Source of the DNA: Eubacteriales bacterium
GTDB taxonomy: Bacteria; Bacillota; Clostridia; Christensenellales; Aristaeellaceae
Assembly: GCA_028705775.1 (NCBI GenBank)
Contig: JAQWCW010000011.1
Span: forward strand, 1-64,000
DNA length: 64,000 bases
Direction: 5' to 3'
Below, one piece after another: positions 16,234 through 17,421 of the stretch (position 1 is its first letter; the number at the start of each line of letters is the position of its first letter). A program made the position numbers and the translations under genes. Under the pieces are notes generated by a model. The model did no database searches. It was not told where the DNA came from and was given only the letters and a program-made list of their open reading frames with translations.

Positions 16234-16417
16234 GAAAAAGAAGCGAAATATCACAGCGGAGTGAATTTTCAAAGAAAAGTCCATAGCGGAGTTTGCTTTG
16301 GGAATTTACGAATATCGCAGCGGCGACTTTACATGGATTTTTCATTTCCCATCCATCTGTTTTAACATTTGCGCGGCATAATAGCCCTGTACCAAATGAA
16401 AGGGAGGACAAAGAAAA

Positions 16418-17260
16418 ATGAAAACCATGAAAAAAATTATCGCGATTATCTCATGCGCCATGATGGTGCTTGCCTGCGTCGGCTGCGCTTTTGCCGCCGC
16501 CGAAATTACCGTGGTATCCCGCGAGGCAGGAAGCGGAACGCGCAGCGCGTTCATCGAGCTTACCGGCGTTGAAGTCAAGGACGAAAACGGAGCCAAAAGC
16601 GACATGACCTATGAGGACGCGGTTGTCCAGAACGGCACGGCTCAGGTAATAACCACCGTCAAGGGCGACGTGAACGCTATCGGCTACATTTCCCTCGGCT
16701 CAATGAGCGACGCTGTCAAGGCCGTTTCCGTTGACGGAATCGTCCCCGCCGAGGAGACCATCCTTTCCGGCGAATACAAGATTGCCCGTCCGCTCAACAT
16801 CGCCTACAAGGGCGAGCTTTCCAAGACCGCCGAGGATTTCGTAGCCTACATTCTCAGCGAAGCTGGTCAGGAAGTCGTATCCGCTAACCATTACATCAAA
16901 AACGAGCCTGCCGCTTACACCGCTTCCGCAGTTGCCGGCAAGATTACCATCGGCGGTTCTTCCTCCGTCGCTCCCCTGATGGAGAAGCTTGCCGAAAGCT
17001 ACATGGCGCTGCATCAGGATGTAACCATCGAGCTTCAGGTTTCCGACAGCAGCACCGGTATGCGCGGCGCTCTTGACGGAACGTTTGAAATCGGAATGGC
17101 AAGCCGCGATTTGAAGCAGAGCGAGCTTGACGACGGGCTTACCCCCGTAACCATAGCGCTTGACGGGATTGCGGTAATCGTAAACAACGATAACCCCGTA
17201 ACCAACCTTACGATTGAAGAAATCCGCCAAATCTTCACCGGCGAAAAGACCGAGTGGTAA
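16418..17260 (+). CDS. Phosphate-binding-type protein with permuted halves
   Basis: 280 aa with an N-terminal export signal (about 1-26). Residues 29-165 match the half that is normally C-terminal in PstS (VVSREAGSGTRSAFIELTG, then AIGYISLGSM). Residues 172-280 match the half that is normally N-terminal (ITIGGSSSVAPLMEKLAESY, GMASRDLKQSEL, LDGIAVIVNNDNP). The protein stops at GEKTEW, just where VVSREAGSGTR would normally continue. So the order is circularly permuted or the gene derives from a tandem duplication trimmed at both ends. SSSVAPL and SGTR are phosphate-contacting segments in PstS. No pstCAB follows, so a role as a solitary sensor or scavenger is possible. The ribosome site is AGGGAGG. 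Confidence 0.8.
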   Translation: MKTMKKIIAIISCAMMVLACVGCAFAAAEITVVSREAGSGTRSAFIELTGVEVKDENGAKSDMTYEDAVVQNGTAQVITTVKGDVNAIGYISLGSMSDAVKAVSVDGIVPAEETILSGEYKIARPLNIAYKGELSKTAEDFVAYILSEAGQEVVSANHYIKNEPAAYTASAVAGKITIGGSSSVAPLMEKLAESYMALHQDVTIELQVSDSSTGMRGALDGTFEIGMASRDLKQSELDDGLTPVTIALDGIAVIVNNDNPVTNLTIEEIRQIFTGEKTEW

Positions 17261-17280
17261 CAGCAAAAGCTCCTGAAAAC

Positions 17281-17317
17281 GGCGCTCCGCTTGCTTATGC
17301 AGGCAGGGCGCTTTTTT
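17281..17317 (+). terminator. Terminator of the phosphate-binding protein gene
   Basis: A GCGC-anchored stem with wobble pairs (about 17282-17294 with 17299-17311) is followed by TTTTTT at 17312-17317. Confidence 0.7.
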
Positions 17318-17421
17318 CTATCAAGTCACGCATAATGCGCCGCAATTCCCGCCCCAAAAAATAAATTTGAATATTTTCTGAAAAAGTGTAACAAATCCGG
17401 TTTGAAAACCATCTTTATTAT

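Follow-up and report, generated by a model that had tools for sequence, protein, structure and literature searches.

Judged by sequence, the closest solved structure to the protein studied here is the "Phosphate-binding protein pstS 2" of Streptococcus pneumoniae (PDB 4h1x), which, going by its deposited name, is probably the PstS2 of the published Pst2 work. The Pst2 transporter of S. pneumoniae functions in phosphate import, and the phoU2 defect is relieved by deleting each of the Pst2 components (PMC4913102). Canonical PstS proteins (profile TIGR02136; structures 4q8r and 4gd5) consist of the same two halves, with the same conserved motifs, as the protein studied here but carry the halves in the opposite order. 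S. pneumoniae PstS2, in contrast, resembles it over its full length in permuted order, motifs included (46% identity). The same order and motifs are shared by permuted PstS proteins of Clostridia and other Bacillota (loci L017, L022-L042, L051-L079 and L099-L108), which are 37-64% identical to it. Among ABC-type binding proteins, a precedent for natural circular permutation is Tp0684 (TpMglB-2) of Treponema pallidum, which still binds its ligand, glucose, and changes shape upon binding (PMC4990184). Unlike the present protein, TpMglB-2 belongs to the Type I sugar family and has a different cut point, which makes it a precedent and not a family relative. A search of the open-access literature found no paper on the permuted PstS lineage itself.

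The gene lies in the window, the whole stretch of 64,000 nucleotides that was analyzed, which is part of contig C31 in a draft genome of 2.72 Mb (48 contigs, 95% complete). Its features are the following:

16327 to 16347, plus strand: Pho-box-like site CTTTACATGGATTTTTCATTT, with TTTACA-type elements at an 11-base period, 70 bases 5' of the start codon
16418 to 17260, plus strand: circularly permuted PstS, 280 aa from an ATG start, made up of signal peptide, C-terminal half, linker and N-terminal half
16418 to 16492, plus strand: signal peptide, residues 1-25, by sequence reading, with the break between MKTMKKIIAIISCAMMVLACVGCAFA and AAE
16493 to 16906, plus strand: C-terminal PstS half, residues 26-163, opening with the phosphate-loop motif SREAGSGTR and equivalent to 4q8r chain 118-244
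16907 to 16936, plus strand: linker, about residues 164-173, running from the old C terminus to the old N terminus in the gap between the matched halves
16937 to 17257, plus strand: N-terminal PstS half, residues 174-280, with motifs GGSSS, SSTG and ASRDLK, equivalent to 4q8r chain 5-110
17275 to 17318, plus strand: intrinsic terminator, a GC-rich hairpin followed by a T run (MFE -26.9 kcal/mol, z -5.66)

The export signal and the terminator had both been proposed in an earlier note on this DNA, and both stand: residues 1-25 read as a signal peptide, and the hairpin is strong. The signal peptide is more likely of the signal peptidase I type, with predicted cleavage between AFA and AAE, although a weak lipobox (VLAC at Cys20) makes a lipoprotein signal possible. 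Gram-positive bacteria usually make their binding proteins as lipoproteins. Across the subtype, the signal peptides of most permuted PstS proteins (L022-L031 and the window, 16418-16492) have a signal peptidase I look and no lipobox. On the minus strand, an apparent pyrR-pyrB-pyrC-pyrF operon neighbors the permuted pstS. A candidate PyrR binding site (RF00515; 16076-16187, minus strand) precedes pyrR at 48.6 bits, short of the gathering score of 54, and this site of the pyr operon was the only Rfam match near permuted pstS.

The swapped order was evident at the profile level. Pfam PF12849 and NCBIfam TIGR02136 each matched the protein in two stretches, with TIGR02136 positions 153-294 at 16472-16900 and positions 31-154 at 16913-17263. 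Both halves of the TIGR02136 profile were matched (185.2 bits over the two stretches, E 1.5e-54), but as one chain in canonical order the protein falls below the curated cut-off (185.2 vs 206.6) because the match is split by the swapped halves. We therefore classed it as a permuted subtype and not as a canonical PstS. Solved structures gave the same picture: 4q8r matched as two swapped halves (residues 175-280 and 28-161), as did 4gd5, whereas 4h1x aligned in a single stretch (window residues 26-280 to 7-261, E 8.5e-65). By BLAST, the native protein matched 4h1x once (46% identity over 257 positions) and 4q8r twice (about 100 bits each). Rotation of the sequence reversed this result: 4q8r was now matched once at full length (43% identity, 244 aa, E 5e-66), and 4h1x in two main pieces. 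Global alignment scores crossed in the same way, from 576 (4h1x) and 253 (4q8r) for the native sequence to 335 (4h1x) and 494 (4q8r) for the rotated one. Moreover, the last residue of the protein is Trp280, which is conserved at the lobe crossover of canonical PstS. Since the matches cross over on rotation and the chain ends at the crossover, the circular permutation is real. The earlier note had read the gene as a natural permutation, with the C-terminal half placed first and the stop at the natural junction, and had named a full-length alignment in standard order as what would overturn this reading. Each part of that description was confirmed, and the only full-length alignment to 4q8r was the one obtained after rotation.

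A frameshift or an assembly join, the other refutation named at the outset, would mimic a permutation, and the draft state of the genome is all that speaks for such an artefact. We reject it because a single frame runs through both halves with no frame change between them, third-position GC is alike in the two (0.70 and 0.66), and the same order recurs in many independent genomes. The permuted order was present in about 60 loci of other genomes. Among sampled genomes, in counts that vary with the E-value cut-off, about 20 of 60 relatives had it, as did some 30 of 148 members of the class and 9 further genomes out of 300 taken across the phylum. The solved 4h1x protein has this order as well, and we give an artefact practically no credence.

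In PstS proteins, loops with motifs of the kind listed above form the lining of the phosphate site, which sits between the two lobes. The window protein keeps GSxS, SxxG, SR and RExGSGTR, the residues of which are likely to line its phosphate site. Of the 49 alignment columns at which permuted and canonical proteins are both conserved, only L126 (usually Phe) departs from the consensus. The family comparison placed the invariant R35, S39, G40 and T41 in the C-terminal half, all of them kept, and the conserved G180, S181, S183, S211, G214, S229, R230 and D249 in the N-terminal half. Cutting the chain at one lobe crossover and linking the old termini should preserve both the fold and the site, which is also what 4h1x implies. 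The match to 4h1x likewise predicts a two-lobed fold for the window protein. An AlphaFold model computed from two sequences, with no deep alignment, had a pLDDT of 29.5, too low to be of use.

The gene had been described at first as encoding a binding protein without a transporter. For the neighborhood this is correct, in that no transporter gene lies beside permuted pstS in the window. For the genome it is not, and an orphan without a transporter was rejected at this level: contig C10 carries an intact cluster of pstC-pstA-pstB-phoU-phoB-phoR in a row, with PstC (284.5 bits) and PstB (411.3 bits) above their curated cut-offs. No pstS adjoins this cluster on C10, where the gene upstream of pstC appears to encode a clostripain-like secreted protease. 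Profile searches with PF12849 and TIGR02136 found no second PstS in the draft genome, and it is possible that one lies in the missing part of this 95%-complete, 48-contig draft. The genome also encodes a Na/Pi cotransporter family protein.

The two separated loci have a putative regulatory site in common. The Pho-box-like site upstream of permuted pstS (CTTTACATGGATTTTTCATTT) has a counterpart upstream of pstC (CTTTACGCGGATTTTACATTT), and the joint pattern CTTTACRYGGATTTTWCATTT, allowing at most 3 mismatches, occurred at two places in the 2.72 Mb, before pstC and before permuted pstS; the reversed control pattern occurred nowhere in the genome. Because this pattern had been drawn from the two sites themselves, an independent test used a matrix derived from relatives, with 13 sites that precede their permuted pstS genes and none from the host genome. 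In the 64 kb window the best match to this matrix was at 16328 (22.1 bits, the next at 16.2), and in 16 kb around pstCAB it lay just before pstC (23.8 bits). By this sequence criterion, an upstream Pho-box-like site common to the pst genes, permuted pstS is a putative member of the Pho regulon.

Gene order in relatives bears on how the two loci came apart. Usable flanks were available for 59 permuted genes, the window's own included. In 53 of these loci, pstC lies directly downstream on the same strand, and in 2 it is adjacent and divergent. By the rule used, neither arrangement held for the remaining 4: the window locus, L066, L035, which has a stop inside the PstS match, and L076, where two permuted pstS genes stand side by side with pstC further on. 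Permuted pstS genes of Clostridia and other Bacillota are nearly all the first gene of pstSCAB, and S. pneumoniae pstS2 lies within a constitutive pst2-phoU2 operon; the window gene, in contrast, stands alone with its Pho-box-like site, on C31 with pstCAB on C10, departing from a linkage that is a genomic habit of the subtype and no requirement for identity. The closest relatives, G013 and G007, have permuted pstS and an intact pstCAB-phoU-phoB cluster in divergent orientation, and the same Pho-box-like elements are found in the intergenic region between the two. These three living arrangements suggest a stepwise exit from the operon, in which pstS was the first gene, then divergent, then unlinked. 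Among the sampled loci, a 4.5 kb contig labelled Desulfobulbaceae (L018) carries the end of a permuted pstS followed by pstCAB-phoU, with products 52-70% identical to proteins of the host genome; it was probably mis-binned or transferred.

There are two main possibilities for the function of a permuted PstS encoded alone. In the first, which takes up the earlier note's suggestion of a sensor with altered hinge motion, the protein would have left transport to become a solitary phosphate sensor that signals to another receptor. In keeping with this possibility, permuted pstS is a monocistronic unit that ends in a terminator of its own, and no transporter gene adjoins it in the window. However, a sensor would leave pstCAB on C10 without any binding protein, as the permuted PstS is the only one found; the subtype is operon-linked elsewhere, opening pstSCAB operons with pstC next in 53 of 59 loci; the Pho-box-like site is held in common with pstCAB; and no receptor or kinase gene was found beside permuted pstS. 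The sensor proposal is not supported by these comparisons, and we regard it as very improbable.

In the second possibility, which we consider highly probable, the protein is the sole detectable PstS of the cell, a member of the permuted Bacillota subtype that has become detached from its operon and would feed PstCAB in trans. The permutation would open the chain at the lobe-to-lobe crossover and join the old ends by a short linker, keeping the two-lobed fold and the phosphate site. The pstS gene would have left the pst operon and would now be transcribed from its own promoter. Through the Pho box common to pstS and pstCAB-phoU-phoBR, scarce phosphate would lead PhoB~P to induce both loci, and the secreted PstS would capture phosphate and hand it to PstCAB in trans. 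The findings on S. pneumoniae Pst2 indicate that a permuted PstS serves in transport. Transport is also compatible with a dual role, in which the protein would, like an ordinary PstS, signal through PstSCAB-PhoU-PhoR in addition. The genes phoU, phoB and phoR follow pstB on C10, and in S. pneumoniae the control of the response regulator by PhoU2 needs a working Pst2 (PMC4913102). Nothing specific stands against a dual role, which adds ordinary Pho signaling and no new sensor, and we hold the chances for and against it to be even.

For the origin of the permutation, a tree was computed from 74 PstS sequences rotated to a common order. The permuted form was strongly clustered (4 changes, versus 19 in shuffles) apart from a few long-branch exceptions, and a constraint grouping all permuted rows was not rejected (AU p = 0.31). 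A single origin is the simplest reading. That PstS was permuted more than once and one lineage reverted, the crossover serving as a breakpoint used repeatedly, we think unlikely. Two canonical-order proteins, L047 (G041) and L049 (G054), sit on a long branch nested among permuted sequences, a placement that possibly reflects a reversion or a long-branch artefact; both have an unusual shortened crossover (e.g., LFVNGTAIGSVTGGISREEGSGTR). The permuted L041, L042, L077 and L079 are placed near canonical proteins, L041 (G039) and L042 (G047) forming a divergent pair on a long stem. Tandem-duplicated ancestors, which the earlier note had suggested looking for in relatives, did not turn up among the PstS ORFs examined, each of which has one copy of each half. 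One genome (G176, L090) has two adjoining permuted pstS genes, and this tandem pair was dismissed as a duplicated ancestor, being two separate permuted genes. A search of viral contigs found no relative.

A widespread permuted form of bacterial PstS with a solved relative is already known, and the window protein adds one more member. A short structural and evolutionary account of the permuted lineage may be missing from the literature, since no open-access description of it was found. The lineage is large in Bacillota and upsets profile-based annotation, as the split match that keeps the window protein under the curated cut-off illustrates. What looks like an orphan, scrambled binding protein is most likely a relocated transport component of the standard kind, serving an ordinary Pst system as its only PstS, and not an orphan sensor. 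Co-regulation of the pst genes would here have outlived their linkage, with the Pho-box-like site retained through the suggested stepwise exit from the operon.
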